A DNA stretch of 63,123 bases from Clostridiales bacterium (GTDB taxonomy: Bacteria; Bacillota; Clostridia; Lachnospirales; JAQSXR01), in contig JAQSXR010000011.1 of assembly GCA_029256575.1 (NCBI GenBank), positions 1-63,123 on the forward strand. The letters run 5' to 3'. How positions within the stretch are numbered: the stretch's first letter is position 1; each line of letters starts with the position of its first letter. Positions 30,180 to 62,727 of this stretch are shown one piece after another. The notes beneath the pieces were generated by a model, which worked only from the letters and a program-made list of their open reading frames with translations, ran no database searches and was not told the origin of the DNA. Position numbers and translations under genes: made by a program.

Positions 30180-30248
30180 GGCTTTATGGCACGAAATGCC
30201 CCAAGCTAAAATTAGCTTGGGGCATGTTTATGACAAGAATTAATCTTT

Positions 30249-30356
30249 CTTCTCTCATCCAGACTTTACTGTCGGTATTGGAATTTCACCAATTCAGCGG
30301 CTTACGCCGGTCACGGACTTTACCGTCGGTAGGGAGTTTCACCCTGCCCCGAAGAA
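30249..30356 (-). promoter_or_regulatory. FMN riboswitch (RFN element)
   Basis: On the minus strand the aptamer begins CTTCGGGGCAGGGTGAAA and ends TCTGGATGAGAGAAG, with the conserved ACCGACGGT, AAAGTCCG and ACCGACAGTAAAGTC segments in order. It controls ribU, switching it off at high FMN by termination. Confidence 0.95.
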
Positions 30357-30375
30357 TATTGTTTTATTTGTCTTT

Positions 30376-56568: not shown

Positions 56569-58419
56569 CTATAGTCCTTTTGTTCTAAGAGCTCTCATGG
56601 AGTTCAAGATTGCAATAACAGAAACACCTACGTCTGCGAATACTGCTGCCCACATATTTGCTATTCCTATGGCCCCTAATAATAGGACAATTGCTTTCAC
56701 TCCTAGTGCAAATACAATATTTTGTTTTACTATTTTTTGTGTCTTTTTTGATATATTTATTGCTGTGGCAATCTTAGAAGGTTCATCATTCATTATAACT
56801 ATGTCTGCTGCTTCAATTGCAGCGTCTGATCCTAGACCACCCATTGCAATCCCTATATCTGCTCTTGTGAGTACCGGAGCATCATTAATCCCATCACCAA
56901 CGAATACAAGTTGCCCTTTTGGCGATTTTCTCAATAATAGTTCTTCTATTTTATCCACTTTATCATTCGGAAGTAATTCTGTATAAACTTCATCGATGCC
57001 AAGTTGTTTTGCAACCTTTTCTCCAACTGCTTTATTGTCACCTGTTAGCATTACTGTTTTACTAATATTTCCTGCTTTAAGTCTCTTAATTGCTTCTATC
57101 GAATCTTCCTTTATTTCATCTGAAATTACAATATACCCCATATACTCGTCATCTATTGCAACATGTACTACTGTTCCTGATATTTCATCTTTGCTATAGT
57201 TTACACCTATTTTATCCATTAACTTCGTGTTTCCTGCATATACTATCTTTCCATCTACGATAGTCTTAACACCAAACCCTGGTATTTCATCAACCTCTCC
57301 AATTCTTTCACTATCAATCTCTTTGTTATATGCTTGTTTTAAAGAAAGTGAAATTGGATGATTTGAATAATTTTCTGCAAATGCAGCTATTTCAATTAGA
57401 CTTTCGTTTGATAATCCCATAGCTTCGACTTTTGTAACACGAAAAGTTCCTTTTGTTAATGTGCCTGTCTTATCAAATACAACAATCTCAGTGGAAGCCA
57501 AGGCTTCTAGATAATTACTTCCCTTTATTAGAATACCATTTTTAGATGCTCCACCAATCCCGCCAAAAAATCCTAATGGTATTGATATTACCAAAGCGCA
57601 TGGACATGATATTACTAGAAATATCAATGCTCGGTATCCCCAATCACTAAAAATTGCATCTTTGATTACAAGAGGAGGTATAACCGCTAGTAAAGCTGCA
57701 GTGATTACCACTACAGGTGTATAATATTTTGCGAATTTAGTTATAAAGTTTTCTGCCTTAGCCTTTTTGCTACTTGCATTCTCAACCAAATCTAATATCT
57801 TAGCAACTGTTGATTCTCCAAATTCTTTTGTTGTCCTAACTGTTAGTACTCCATTTATATTAATACAGCCACTTAATACGTCACTATCAACGAATGCTTC
57901 TCGTGGTACGGATTCTCCGGTCAATGCAGAAGTATCGATTGATGAATTCCCTTCTATAACTATTCCATCTAGAGGAATTCTTTCACCTGGCTTAATAACA
58001 ATTACTTCACCAATCTCAACTTCTTCTGGATCAACCTTTATTAATTCACCTGCACGCTTTACATTCGCATAATCTGGGCGGATATCCATTAATGTAGCAA
58101 TTGATTTTCTTGATCGATTCACTGCATAATTTTGAAATGCTTCCCCAATCTGATAAAACAACATTACTGCAACTCCCTCAGGATACTCTCCTACAGCAAA
58201 CGCACCTATGGTTGCTATACTCATTAAGAAGTTTTCATCAAATATTTGGCCGCGAACAATATTTCTTATTGCCCCAATTAAAACGTCTCCACCTATTACT
58301 AAATATGCAATTAGAAATACTGCTAACTCCCAATTCTTTGTTAAGGGAGCAAGTAATGCAATCGCAAAAACCACTCCTCCAAATAATATTCTAATTAATG
58401 TCTTCTGGAATCTACTCAT
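56569..58419 (-). CDS. Heavy-metal P1B-type ATPase (Cd/Zn/Pb export)
   Basis: 616 residues from the ATG at 58419 behind TAGGAGTGG. Phosphorylation motif DKTGTLTKG near 316, metal-binding SCPCAL near 272, TGES near 187, NHPIS near 350 (His-Pro), MLTGDNK and GDGINDAP near 500. The N-terminal HMA domain of CadA is absent; it is encoded by a separate small gene just upstream. Neighbouring CadC-like repressor supports Cd/Zn/Pb. Product of the REP-flanked operon end. Confidence 0.93.
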   Translation of the reverse strand: MSRFQKTLIRILFGGVVFAIALLAPLTKNWELAVFLIAYLVIGGDVLIGAIRNIVRGQIFDENFLMSIATIGAFAVGEYPEGVAVMLFYQIGEAFQNYAVNRSRKSIATLMDIRPDYANVKRAGELIKVDPEEVEIGEVIVIKPGERIPLDGIVIEGNSSIDTSALTGESVPREAFVDSDVLSGCININGVLTVRTTKEFGESTVAKILDLVENASSKKAKAENFITKFAKYYTPVVVITAALLAVIPPLVIKDAIFSDWGYRALIFLVISCPCALVISIPLGFFGGIGGASKNGILIKGSNYLEALASTEIVVFDKTGTLTKGTFRVTKVEAMGLSNESLIEIAAFAENYSNHPISLSLKQAYNKEIDSERIGEVDEIPGFGVKTIVDGKIVYAGNTKLMDKIGVNYSKDEISGTVVHVAIDDEYMGYIVISDEIKEDSIEAIKRLKAGNISKTVMLTGDNKAVGEKVAKQLGIDEVYTELLPNDKVDKIEELLLRKSPKGQLVFVGDGINDAPVLTRADIGIAMGGLGSDAAIEAADIVIMNDEPSKIATAINISKKTQKIVKQNIVFALGVKAIVLLLGAIGIANMWAAVFADVGVSVIAILNSMRALRTKGL

Positions 58420-58444
58420 GGATGCCACTCCTAACGTTTATGTA

Positions 58445-58663
58445 TTAAATTTTTATTTTGCAATCTGGTTCTATTTTTTTACAAACCTTTGCAGCTTGTT
58501 TTAGTATGTCTTCAAAAAGTTCATCTACTGCATCAATTGTCAATTTTTGAGCCATAAAACTAATATTTGCTGCTTTAACACCTTCGATATCATTTATTGC
58601 TTTTTCCATTTTTGCTGCACAATTGGCACAATCAAGATCAACTAATTTATAAGTTTTCTTCAT
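58445..58663 (-). CDS. Stand-alone HMA metal-binding protein
   Basis: 72 residues with DLDCANCAAKMEKAI (residues 9-23), the CxxC of heavy-metal-associated domains, in the D-C-A-N-C form normally fused to the N-terminus of CadA/ZntA. It lies 26 bp upstream of the ATPase that lacks this domain, so it likely delivers or senses the metal in trans. SD AAGGAGG. Confidence 0.9.
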   Translation of the reverse strand: MKKTYKLVDLDCANCAAKMEKAINDIEGVKAANISFMAQKLTIDAVDELFEDILKQAAKVCKKIEPDCKIKI

Positions 58664-58702
58664 ATATAAAAATCCTCCTTATGTTTGCTTTCTTTAATCA
58701 TA

Positions 58703-59065
58703 TTACTCTGCGACATGTTCCATTCCTTGATCAATAATTGTTATAACATGTGAATCTGCTAATGAGTAAAAAACTGTTTTCCCATCTCTTCTATTTTTAA
58801 CTAATTTAGATTGTTTGAGAACTCGTAATTGATGCGAAATAGCGGATTGAGTCATATTTAGGATCTGTGCTATATCACAAACGCACATTTCTGATTCACG
58901 TAGTACATACAATATTTTGATTCTTGTTGAGTCTCCAAAAACCTTAAAAAGTTCTGCTAAATCGTATAAAGTCTCTTCCATCGGCATTTTTGCATTTACT
59001 AACCCAACTATATCTTCGTGAATACAAATATAATCACAATTATCTACATTAGTTTTATCAATCAT
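58703..59065 (-). CDS. ArsR/SmtB family metal-responsive repressor (CadC-like)
   Basis: 120 residues. Winged helix ILNMTQSAISHQLRVLKQSKLVKNRRDGKTVFY. Potential alpha3N ligands CVCDIA near 60 with N-terminal CDYICIHED, and the alpha5 site DSHVITIIDQGMEHVAE (D, H, H, E) near the C-terminus. Both metal sites are thus possible, as in CadC. Represses the P-type ATPase operon. Start ATG behind AAAGGAG. Confidence 0.92.
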   Translation of the reverse strand: MIDKTNVDNCDYICIHEDIVGLVNAKMPMEETLYDLAELFKVFGDSTRIKILYVLRESEMCVCDIAQILNMTQSAISHQLRVLKQSKLVKNRRDGKTVFYSLADSHVITIIDQGMEHVAE

Positions 59066-59287: not shown

Positions 59288-60925
59288 TTAATTTAGATAT
59301 ACTACTCTTTTATATTCTTGAGACTCTATCACTTTTCTATATTCTCCGGATATAAGTATTTTCCCTTTTTCCATTATAATTAATTCATCAAAATCCTTTA
59401 GGTATTCTTCGGATATATTATGAGATGCAAAAATAACAGTTTTGTTAGAGAGCCCAAATACTCTTTCCTCAATCATCTGCGTATTTCTAAAATCAATTGC
59501 TGAAAAAGGATCATCAAAAACTAATATTTCGTTGTCAATTATTAACATACGGATTAGTGCTATTAGTTGTTTTTCTCCCTCATTTAATACTTGACAATTT
59601 GATTTATCTGAAAAGATATTTTCTATATCTATTCGCAAGTATTTTACTATGCTATCCGCATATTCATGAACATAAGTATTAAATATACTAACATTGTTAC
59701 TAAAGTTATCCGCGTAAACATACTCATTTTGATTAATGCATGTTATTATTTCAGACGTATCAAGTTCCTCTATATTCTCACCATCAATCAAAATTTCACC
59801 ATTTTGGACTTTCGCATATTTCATTAAGGCACTCACAATTGTTGACTTACCTGAACCACTAGGTCCTATAATTGCATATTTTTTCCCCCTTTTAAATTCA
59901 TATGAAAAATTCAGCAACAAAAAACCTTCCTCTTCAATTGTAATATCTTTAAACTCTATGTGTGAATTAAATTGCGCCTTAGTATATAAGTCTTTTTTAT
60001 CTTCATTTATTATATTAATTACTTTACTTTTAATTTCTTTCGTTGCATTAATATTCTTAATATCCTTTAAAATATATCGTACAGGATATATAAAACTATC
60101 AATATATCCGAGTGTTGCTACACCAGTTCCTAGCGTTATTTCTTTTTTATAAAGTAAATAAGCTATTGCTGAAATGGCCGATAAATTTAGAAAATCTAGT
60201 GCAAATCTATTTAAAACATCTGTAATTGCATTGAATTTTCCAAAATCATATTTCTTTTGCTCTGATGAAGCGAGGTATTTATTATGTTCGTCTAATATAC
60301 TCTTCTCTGTTTTTTTATTTACAAATTTTGCTCCTTCAAAGAGATCCTTTAATTTTTCTGTATACTTACTGAAACTTCTTAGGTGCGCTTTCTTTTTATT
60401 TGAGAGCGCCTTAATAGTCATTTTGGGAACTATTATTGTAATCCCAGTAGCTATTATAATGACAACTGTTATTCTATAATCAATGAAGACAAAGAGAAAT
60501 ATAGCGTAAATTATTAATGTAATACTTGCTTTTATAATATCGATAATAGCATCAACATATCTACTTTCTATTACTGTAATATCATTATTAATCATTGATA
60601 TGTAATCTCCAATATTCGTTTGTGCAAATTTGGAGTAATCTTTTTTAATTATTGATTTAAAAAAATCATGCTTCATTAGGATACTTAATTCTTTATCCTT
60701 TTTCCATTCATATTTTTGTGAGATATATCGAAATAATGCACCTAATATAATTAAAGAGCTAAATGCAACTCCCAATAAAATAATTCCATTAATTCCATTA
60801 TTAAAATTATAATCAAATAACAGTTTATTAATATAAGGTAATAAAGCTATAGTCAAAATATATAGAGATGAAAATAATATCTGAATTAAAAGTACTCCTT
60901 TTATTTTTCGAATATACGTTTTCAT
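59288..60925 (-). CDS. ABC exporter, fused TM and ATPase domains
   Basis: 545 residues from ATG 60925 behind GGGGG. Residues 1-300 hold five or six TM segments of type I exporters. ATPase: Walker A GPSGSGKST near 360, Q-loop in NQNEYVY, signature LNEGEKQ (altered from LSGGQ), Walker B ILVFDDPFSAID, switch His SHNISEE. A half-transporter, likely homodimer. It follows a secreted-peptide gene and a leader with uORF and hairpin, so export of, or immunity to, a peptide is plausible. No C39 peptidase domain. Confidence 0.88.
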   Translation of the reverse strand: MKTYIRKIKGVLLIQILFSSLYILTIALLPYINKLLFDYNFNNGINGIILLGVAFSSLIILGALFRYISQKYEWKKDKELSILMKHDFFKSIIKKDYSKFAQTNIGDYISMINNDITVIESRYVDAIIDIIKASITLIIYAIFLFVFIDYRITVVIIIATGITIIVPKMTIKALSNKKKAHLRSFSKYTEKLKDLFEGAKFVNKKTEKSILDEHNKYLASSEQKKYDFGKFNAITDVLNRFALDFLNLSAISAIAYLLYKKEITLGTGVATLGYIDSFIYPVRYILKDIKNINATKEIKSKVINIINEDKKDLYTKAQFNSHIEFKDITIEEEGFLLLNFSYEFKRGKKYAIIGPSGSGKSTIVSALMKYAKVQNGEILIDGENIEELDTSEIITCINQNEYVYADNFSNNVSIFNTYVHEYADSIVKYLRIDIENIFSDKSNCQVLNEGEKQLIALIRMLIIDNEILVFDDPFSAIDFRNTQMIEERVFGLSNKTVIFASHNISEEYLKDFDELIIMEKGKILISGEYRKVIESQEYKRVVYLN

Positions 60926-60944
60926 GACAACCCCCTTTTGTGAA

Positions 60945-60973
60945 AACAAGACGCAAAATATTTGCGTCTTGTT
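60945..60973 (-). promoter_or_regulatory. Terminator-like hairpin before the ABC exporter
   Basis: Perfect 13-bp stem AACAAGACGCAAA/TTTGCGTCTTGTT with 3-nt loop; T-rich 3' arm TTGTTTTC. It ends 19 bases before the ABC start codon. Confidence 0.7.
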
Positions 60974-60984
60974 CGGCTTTTTAG

Positions 60985-61063
60985 GCTGCTCTTCCTTGCT
61001 CTTTCAAATTCTTCTTCAATTTAATTATAGAAGAATTCTGCCATTGCAAGTCTCCCCTACAGC
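60985..61063 (-). other. Rod-like structured leader upstream of the ABC exporter
   Basis: Minus-strand RNA can pair GCTG (61063-61060) with CAGC (60988-60985), CTTGC (61050-61046) with GCAAG (60999-60995), and AATTCTTC (61037-61030) with GAAGAATT (61014-61007), in nested order. A 7-codon ORF overlaps the 5' arm. No Rfam class recognised. Confidence 0.45.
61021..61044 (-). CDS. Seven-codon upstream ORF (MAEFFYN)
   Basis: ATG (61042-61044) to TAA (61021-61023), seven bases behind an excellent AGGGGAG site (61052-61058). Sits in the leader of the ABC exporter, spanning the 5' arm of the inner hairpin. May be a leader peptide for attenuation. No coding evidence beyond the ribosome site. Confidence 0.4.
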   Translation of the reverse strand: MAEFFYN

Positions 61064-61187
61064 ATTTACGCAAATACTTTTACCTAAAAGCACTCTATGT
61101 TCAATAATTCCCTCATCCTGTTAATATCATAAGCTTGTTTTAATAAAATATATCAACTGGGTTTCTTTGCAAAATACAATACTTAAT

Positions 61188-61376
61188 CTAGAATAGATTA
61201 CTTATTCTAATGCTTCTTGTTTCTATGAGGATATTCAAAGGTACATCCCCTTCACAATATAGGTTTGTGTCCAGTTTAGGTGCAGCTAGTGATTGTGCTT
61301 GATTAATAAATGCAATGTTAGAAATGAAAACTGTTACCAAGATGATTCCAATAAGACTAAATGTTTTTCTTTTCAT
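61188..61376 (-). CDS. Small secreted peptide, candidate signalling pre-peptide
   Basis: 62 residues: basic start MKRK, hydrophobic core (about 6-24), polar region ending QAQSLA with possible signal peptidase cleavage near A31, and a mature part of about 30 residues with one Cys, ending ETRSIRISNLF. GGAGGG lies before the ATG. Transcribed divergently from the HTH-TPR regulator and upstream of the ABC exporter in the same direction. Architecture resembles PapR-type pre-peptides, but no sequence match is claimed. Confidence 0.7.
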   Translation of the reverse strand: MKRKTFSLIGIILVTVFISNIAFINQAQSLAAPKLDTNLYCEGDVPLNILIETRSIRISNLF

Positions 61377-61387
61377 AAAATCCCTCC

Positions 61388-61430
61388 AATGATATAATAT
61401 GTCTGATATATTTTAATTAATTATATCATT
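61388..61430. promoter_or_regulatory. 11-bp inverted repeat between regulator and peptide genes
   Basis: AATGATATAAT (61388-61398) and ATTATATCATT (61420-61430), perfect arms, 21-bp spacer. It covers the likely -10 of the peptide gene and lies between divergent genes; a probable operator. Confidence 0.65.
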
Positions 61431-61512
61431 TACTTGTCTTAGATTTATATAGACATTTATGTCATGTTTGCTACTATATTTCAAATTATTTGTTGATAAG
61501 GGGGGGCTATTT

Positions 61513-62457
61513 ATGAATTACAATCATTTTGGAGAATTGCTAAAAGAATTAAGATTATCAAGAAATTTGACGTTAGATCAGTTGTCAGAAGGCGTTTGTA
61601 GTTCTCGACAATTATCCCGTTTAGAAAAAGGGGAGTTTAATCCTTCTATATATATTTTGAATCAATTATCTTATAAATTTAATATTGATCTGCAGGAATA
61701 TTATAAGATCACTTTCTGCGATCAAACATTTCAAGCATATAACTATAAGTTTCAATGTGAGCAAGCTATAATAAACTGTGACGTAATGTTACTACGTAAG
61801 TTAATTGAAATAATGGAAACATTACAAGAATTCCAGAGTGGTGAAAATTTACAATACATATTTTATGGTAAAGCACTATGTAGTTCTTTAATTGATAAAA
61901 ATTATATTCAATCAATTCAATACTGCAATAGTGGTTTACTTATAGAAGATTCTTCTTTCACAATAAATACTATGAAATACAAAATATATTCAAATGTTGG
62001 GTTAACACTTATAAATTGTATAGCAGGGAATTATAGTAGTTTACATAATAATACTCAAGCCCTAAAAATTCTAGAAGATTTATACTTAATTATGCACGAT
62101 CAAATAAATAATACTCCATTTAAAATGTATTTATCTTCTTCCTTTAATAAGAAACTTTACCAAAATACAACTTACAACCTAAGTATTGCTTATATGAATC
62201 TAGAGCAGTTTGATAAATCATTAGACTATACCGAAGAAGGAATATCATATTCATTAAAAGAAAATTATTTGCGTTTTCTACCTGAGTTATTATATCAAAA
62301 AATGCGCCTACTCTATATAATGGAAAAGTATTCAGAAGCAAAAGATGTTTATCCAATATACCAAAGTTTTTATCAATTATGTAGAAGTAAGGAAGAAAAT
62401 GAAAAACACAAAATAGAAATTAAAGAAAATTATCCGCTGCTAAATATAAATAATTAA
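61513..62457 (+). CDS. HTH-TPR regulator (Rgg/PlcR-like, RRNPP type)
   Basis: 314 residues from ATG 61513 behind a G-run; the upstream in-frame extension lacks a site. Residues 1-60 are an XRE-type HTH (FGELLKELRLSRNLTLDQLSEGVCSSRQLSRLEKGEFNPSIYILNQL). The rest is helical with TPR-like repeats (YNLSIAYMNLEQFDKSLDYTEEGISYSLKENY near 240-270). Such proteins usually bind short re-imported peptides. Divergent small secreted peptide at 61188-61376 is the natural partner. Terminator at 62686. Confidence 0.85.
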   Translation: MNYNHFGELLKELRLSRNLTLDQLSEGVCSSRQLSRLEKGEFNPSIYILNQLSYKFNIDLQEYYKITFCDQTFQAYNYKFQCEQAIINCDVMLLRKLIEIMETLQEFQSGENLQYIFYGKALCSSLIDKNYIQSIQYCNSGLLIEDSSFTINTMKYKIYSNVGLTLINCIAGNYSSLHNNTQALKILEDLYLIMHDQINNTPFKMYLSSSFNKKLYQNTTYNLSIAYMNLEQFDKSLDYTEEGISYSLKENYLRFLPELLYQKMRLLYIMEKYSEAKDVYPIYQSFYQLCRSKEENEKHKIEIKENYPLLNINN

Positions 62458-62685
62458 TAAAACGTTATCAAATTCAAAATATATAAATATAAAAAACAAC
62501 TACAAAAAACAACTATAAATAACAACTATACAAAAAATAATAATACAAAAATAAACAACAAAAAAATAACTACAAAAATGCATACTAAAAAATGCATACT
62601 AAAAAAAAGCATACTAAAAAAACACATTCTACGAAAACAGATTCTACAAAAATACATACTACAAAACTACATACTACAGACTACA
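62458..62685. repeat. A-rich degenerate repeat tract
   Basis: About 230 bp made of imperfect units such as ACAACTACAAAAA, GCATACTAAAAAA and CATACTACAAAA. Drifts from one unit to the next along the tract. The plus-strand ORF inside it is a by-product (K, T, H-rich). Confidence 0.7.
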
Positions 62686-62727
62686 AAATACCCGCAAATG
62701 TTAGCCAACACATTTACGGGTATTTTA
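62686..62727. terminator. Bidirectional terminator
   Basis: AAAATACCCG-AAATGT paired with ACATTT-CGGGTATTTT around an 8-nt loop, with A/T flanks on both sides; serves the regulator (+) and the amidase (-). Confidence 0.82.

Follow-up and report, generated by a model that had tools for sequence, protein, structure and literature searches.

A putative PlcR-like peptide receptor and a divergent gene for a predicted Sec-type propeptide next to an exporter gene in a Clostridiales bacterium

The main finding of this work is a regulator gene and a divergent gene for a 62-residue peptide in a 63,123-nucleotide stretch of a Clostridiales bacterium (contig JAQSXR010000011.1; this whole stretch is called the window below), which together probably constitute a peptide quorum-sensing pair of the RRNPP type. 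We give this reading a probability of about 0.75, and prefer it because of the homology of the regulator to PlcR, the asparagines kept in its peptide-binding groove and the association of the whole regulator family with open reading frames (ORFs) that encode signal peptides. An earlier note on this DNA had described the two genes and read them as receptor and propeptide; both were recovered exactly as described, and the same three lines of evidence bear out that reading. The note had further spoken of a quorum-sensing or bacteriocin-type cassette, of which the first half is well supported and the second is unsupported for the 62-residue peptide. RRNPP signalling is understood in detail for Bacillales and Lactobacillales and much less so for clostridia; what the window contributes is a divergent variant whose possible output is an ATP-binding cassette (ABC) exporter (Table 1).

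With 314 residues and a helix-turn-helix (HTH) domain, the regulator falls within the size range of RRNPP receptors (250-500 residues). Pfam recognized HTH_3 (3.1e-7) and, weakly, the tetratricopeptide repeat (TPR) model TPR_2 (0.0043). In a phmmer search of the PDB, the best match was PlcR (2qfc; 5.6e-7, residues 5-290), which was also the sole solved protein to match at 1e-5 or better, and did so over nearly the full length. A profile built from 16 relatives of the regulator (A1) matched PlcR from end to end (8.4e-37 over 1-295), and it matched other regulators, including ComR, chiefly through the HTH and the adjoining region. Alignment with PlcR placed N159 and N201 opposite N168 and N222 of the regulator and Y64 opposite Y64, while K87, K89 and Q237, which we take to be PapR contacts, were replaced. 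The full-length profile match and the groove asparagines point to a peptide-binding TPR domain despite the weak TPR_2 score, and the retention of the fold and of the backbone-binding asparagines, together with the loss of the other three residues, agrees with an RRNPP receptor whose specificity is unlike that for PapR. Across RNPP proteins, one conserved asparagine contacts the peptide backbone (PMC3601957). The regulator gene is present in one copy in its genome, which also encodes three SBP_bac_5 (oligopeptide permease-type, oligopeptide-binding) proteins. Searches of a genome contig collection with the regulator or the exporter, and of viral contigs with three regulators, returned no useful close relatives, and plasmid and phage collections gave hits at 21-27% identity only.

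The peptide ORF is preceded by the Shine-Dalgarno sequence GGAGGG (61382-61387), 5 nt before its ATG, and its product shows a basic N-terminus (KRK) and a 19-residue hydrophobic core, FSLIGIILVTVFISNIAFI. A hand rule predicts a signal-peptidase site at QSLA/AP, with the cut after SLA, which would leave about 31 residues ending in RSIRISNLF. Its length of 62 residues and its distance of 136 bp from the regulator agree with the 10-100 residues and direct adjacency expected of RRNPP propeptides. We consider it very improbable that the ORF is a chance frame and the regulator an orphan HTH-TPR protein. No peptide homologue was found, about 60% of the family regulators show no recognisable signal-peptide ORF, and the codon score of the frame (0.16) lies 1.5 standard deviations below the coding mean (0.37+-0.14), all of which would suit a chance frame; the same score, however, lies 2.2 standard deviations above out-of-frame sequence (non-coding, -0.26+-0.19) and is higher than that of the regulator (0.09), and when the 587 bp separating the ABC gene from the regulator were shuffled 2000 times with dinucleotides preserved, not once did a Shine-Dalgarno-preceded, signal-peptide-like ORF of 40-80 residues appear. 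Moreover, the ribosome-binding site is strong, and the closest homologue of the regulator has its small ORF in the same divergent position. A 30-residue TTG frame at 60981-61073 was rejected as a candidate peptide, having an uninformative codon score and a poor start.

Of greatest interest is a finding outside the window, an order-wide regulator family with opposite-strand Sec-type propeptides. A single-sequence search at 1e-10 gave regulator matches in 21 of 392 genomes of the order, the window's own included, and a profile search found family members in 24 of 96 genomes. When small ORFs were required to encode 35-80 residues, to have a Shine-Dalgarno sequence, at least two early basic residues and a hydrophobic core, and to lie within 350 bp, 26 of 65 family regulators had one, and among control genes of the same genomes the figure was 4 of 309 (p = 2e-18; paralogues are not independent, and the 26 positives span 16 genomes). 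A smaller, earlier test, with the window included, had given 10/28 regulators and 0/90 controls. Homologues without an adjacent small ORF had been named in the earlier note as what would speak against the pair; under these strict rules 40% have one, compared with 1% of control genes. In all 26 cases the small ORF lies on the strand opposite to the regulator, tail-to-tail and 3' of it in 24 and divergent in two (L156 and L071, the latter identical to L005); L071 is the closest homologue found by single-sequence search and is divergent like the window. The family propeptides are diverse, with about 44-69 residues and Sec-type signals, and two pairs of them gave dS 0.66/dN 0.47 and dS 0.91/dN 0.50, being too short to decide. 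Among the papers searched, none describes this regulator family and none treats RRNPP together with Lachnospiraceae, and the relatives in this order are apparently an undescribed group in which every detected peptide gene opposes the receptor strand. One genome (G026) holds 21 matches to the family, which suggests many parallel signalling systems, and one relative (G015:C49:5469-6413) has 12 in-frame stops and is a decayed copy. Members of about 575-660 residues (L006, L007, L009, L011, L012, L014, L020, L021, L030), several of which give two profile matches within one open frame, appear as doubled HTH-TPR receptors.

An alternative that we regard as improbable is that the peptide acts as an effector after export, either as a bacteriocin-like molecule or as a small secreted protein, with the HTH-TPR protein serving as its ordinary regulator and not as its receptor. 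Known RRNPP pheromones are shorter than the predicted mature part of about 31 residues, and an ABC exporter is encoded nearby. Against this, the peptide has a predicted Sec-type signal and no double-glycine leader, and a domain search of the exporter found no peptidase domain, C39 included, so that both features of a C39 bacteriocin-exporter system are missing; RRNPP precursors commonly undergo further processing, and a peptide beside a receptor is the RRNPP signature across the regulator family. The usual RRNPP pheromone consists of the last 4-10 residues (PMC10075063). In the mechanism that we infer for an RRNPP-type pair, including peptide processing, mature sequence and direction of regulation, the 62-residue precursor would be exported by Sec and lose about 31 residues to signal peptidase; further proteolysis would free a short peptide from the C-terminus, probably part of ETRSIRISNLF, which an oligopeptide permease would take back up. 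Once inside, this peptide would bind the divergent PlcR-like regulator in its TPR groove, and the bound regulator would control the promoter region between the two genes and possibly also the ABC exporter gene, codirectional with the peptide gene.

The intergenic region of 136 bp does contain the perfect 11-bp inverted repeat that had been reported between the two genes. A repeat of this kind, its arms no more than 40 apart, turned up in 0.85% of shuffled versions of the region (dinucleotides preserved), which makes it unlikely by chance, not overwhelmingly so. An extended -10 element, TGATATAAT, is present in both arms (61390-61398 toward the regulator, 61428-61420 toward the peptide gene), so that the repeat is more simply explained as two opposed promoter elements, and it was rejected as first choice for an operator. 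The scan of 61370-61398 (+) gave a promoter score of 10/12, with TG, and a second candidate on the + strand, TAGACA-16-TACTAT, lies at 61450-61477. The short palindrome GACATttATGTC, which overlaps the -35 of this second candidate and has few copies in the genome, may be a better candidate for the regulator's operator.

Several observations weigh against the RRNPP-type reading or against the exporter as part of it. The TPR score of the regulator (0.0043) falls short of the RRNPP_detector threshold (1e-5 on Pfam models), the presumed PapR contacts are not kept, and an AlphaFold model made without an alignment was unusable (pLDDT 41.5). The searches gave no convincing relative of the 62-residue peptide, the best matches having 29-35% identity and E values of 0.04-0.06. 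The exporter, in turn, has a separate structured leader of its own and degenerate ATPase motifs, is not conserved beside the regulator, and was not found within several kb of the closest regulator homologue (L071).

Control of the exporter by the regulator-peptide pair falls somewhat short of an even chance in our estimation. The earlier note had placed an ABC exporter lacking a peptidase domain downstream of the peptide gene; it is indeed on the same strand and without such a domain, but 262 bp with a strongly structured leader separate the two genes, and therefore a single peptide-exporter operon should not be assumed. Alternatively, the quorum-sensing pair may be real and the exporter an independent neighbour, a drug or peptide exporter under an attenuator in its own leader as in bmrB-bmrCD, a serious possibility that we would still not place at even odds. 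The leader speaks for it: it folds far more stably than shuffled sequence (z of -4.4), and in transcripts truncated within the 13-bp hairpin, upstream 61068-61080 pairs with the first arm of the hairpin as a competing partner. A precedent for such an arrangement is bmrB (PMC4191407). The layout of this leader appears attenuator-like by analogy, with a possible upstream ORF as leader-peptide candidate, although the U-run of the hairpin is short on the - strand and termination is doubtful. As a known RNA family the leader was rejected, no credible match having been found in Rfam. Also in favour of independence, two of the closest exporter relatives (38%, L066, the nearest; 32%, L067) stand alone, without a regulator, and the closest regulator homologue lacks an exporter in its vicinity. 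On the other side, one genus has two genomes in which such an exporter comes directly after the regulator (70 bp behind it in L108, 85 bp in L112), and an exporter lies within 7 kb of 8 of 63 family regulators, compared with one of the 40 control regions (p 0.07). These 7-kb counts, here and below, leave out L112 and L111, both of which came from the exporter search, and contig ends cut some regulator loci, lowering the counts on the regulator side. The trend gives modest support to the view that this family has exporters among its outputs; the inclusion of the exporter in the proposed cassette is partly supported, by the 8 of 63 relatives, and is weakened by its absence beside L071, the p of 0.07 and the degenerate ATPase motifs.

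These motifs bear on a further explanation, namely that the locus is the remnant of a quorum-sensing-controlled cluster for a radical S-adenosylmethionine (SAM) RiPP (ribosomally synthesized and post-translationally modified peptide), from which precursor and maturase were lost and in which the exporter is decaying. We consider this unlikely. In its signature LNEGEKQ, the exporter has NEGEKQ (for SGGEKQ) where all 14 aligned relatives have SGGE or SGGQ, and in Walker B an Asp replaces the catalytic Glu (D-D), unlike in the 14 relatives, while Walker A and the H-loop His show nothing unusual. The gene may be decaying, or its product may be a weak ATPase or a degenerate subunit. Another of the closest exporter relatives (34%, L068) closes a radical-SAM RiPP-type operon, and family regulator, radical-SAM maturase and ABC exporter occur together in order-mates (L109, L116, L120, L124, L153, L172, L111), several of these loci also carrying a signal-peptide ORF. 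No such maturase is encoded in the window, and a genome search with one query found none. A remnant is disfavoured by all frames being open, with no pseudogene pieces seen, by the division of the genome into 64 contigs and by association statistics that are modest, at p about 0.05: a radical-SAM maturase lies within 7 kb of 9/63 family regulators and 1/40 control regions (p 0.046), and maturase and exporter together near 6/63 and 0/40 (p 0.048). The maturases resemble CefB, Clo7bot and PapB-type families, with scores below the cut-offs of these. Clusters of the radical-SAM RiPP type with ABC exporters were delimited at L068:283-4982, L109:1261-9843, L111:73-11776 and L153:1704-7932; three adjoin a family regulator, and those of L068, L109 and L111 contain candidate precursors with Cys.

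Taking the RRNPP-type pair and its family together, we tentatively hypothesize, at odds clearly below even, that undescribed RRNPP-like receptors with opposite-strand Sec-type propeptides, frequently multiplied within one genome, govern cassettes for export and for radical-SAM RiPPs across the order, and that the pair of the window governs a single exporter with an attenuator-type leader of its own. The family yields many receptor-propeptide pairs, some beside uncharacterised radical-SAM RiPP-type clusters, and silent clusters could be switched on by a peptide.

Table 1. Features of the regulator-peptide-exporter region, in window coordinates
Feature	Position	Strand	Basis
HTH-TPR regulator, 314 aa, PlcR-like (RRNPP-type) putative peptide receptor	61513..62457	+	Pfam, phmmer, profile, groove Asn
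62-aa propeptide gene, predicted Sec-type signal sequence at residues 1-31	61188..61376	-	ORF, Shine-Dalgarno, codon score, shuffles
Left arm of 11-bp inverted repeat, with extended -10 TGATATAAT toward regulator	61388..61398	+	promoter scan
Right arm of inverted repeat, with extended -10 TGATATAAT toward peptide gene	61420..61430	-	sequence; promoter inferred
Short palindrome GACATttATGTC, 5' of proposed peptide promoter	61452..61463	.	sole window match, 0.01 expected by chance
ABC exporter half-transporter, 545 aa, best start ATG 60925	59288..60925	-	Pfam ABC_membrane 3.3e-12, ABC_tran 2e-19
Structured attenuator-like leader 5' of exporter	60926..61187	-	fold z = -4.36 for 60935-61110
Perfect hairpin of 13 bp, immediately 5' of exporter ribosome-binding site	60945..60973	-	repeat search, folding
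Possible 7-codon upstream ORF MAEFFYN, GGGGAG 7 nt before ATG; leader-peptide candidate	61021..61044	-	sequence

Around these features, an apparent heavy-metal resistance set adjoins the exporter at 56569-59065 (P-type ATPase, small heavy-metal-associated protein and ArsR-type repressor, as read from the sequence), and an FMN riboswitch lies at 30243-30360 (-), with 116 bits. The stretch 3' of the regulator (62458-62690) has 3% G and 61% A and consists of degenerate 14-15-bp tandem repeats (AAAAAACATACTAC), with further stretches of this sort elsewhere in the genome (C3:8835-8949, C37 and C11).

Compared with known systems, the window shares with PlcR-PapR of the Bacillus cereus group an HTH-TPR receptor of about 300 residues, the equivalents of N159/N201 and Y64, and an adjoining gene for a small propeptide, here predicted to be secreted. 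It differs in its weak similarity (phmmer 5.6e-7), in the loss of K87/K89/Q237 and in the divergent propeptide, whereas papR lies downstream of plcR on the same strand; with the PapR-binding residues partly lost and no propeptide in that position, it does not belong to the PlcR-PapR subfamily. QssR-QssP (Qsr-Qsp) of Clostridium likewise combine a clostridial RRNPP regulator with an adjacent signal-sequence precursor, for which re-import by Opp is expected; these pairs share one operon (PMC7206700), while 26/26 detected propeptide ORFs of the present family are opposite-strand. Candidates of RRNPP_detector near biosynthetic clusters (PMC10075063) present a five-point signature that includes a small secreted propeptide, a TPR receptor of 250-500 residues and adjacency, as seen or, for secretion, predicted here, except that the TPR score of 0.0043 misses the 1e-5 cut-off. 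The exporter leader recalls bmrB-bmrCD of B. subtilis, where a short upstream ORF and alternative hairpins precede an ABC exporter (PMC4191407), a resemblance of layout only. In streptococcal Rgg-SHP systems, pheromone genes are opposite-strand, divergent or convergent (PMC13361665), as in the present family, some relatives of which adjoin radical-SAM RiPP-type genes and exporters as in RaS-RiPP operons. SHPs, however, are shorter and exported by PptAB, unlike the Sec-type precursors of about 44-69 residues found here (62 in the window, which has no maturase). The streptococcal Rgg/SHP-RaS-RiPP operons offer the nearest functional parallel.

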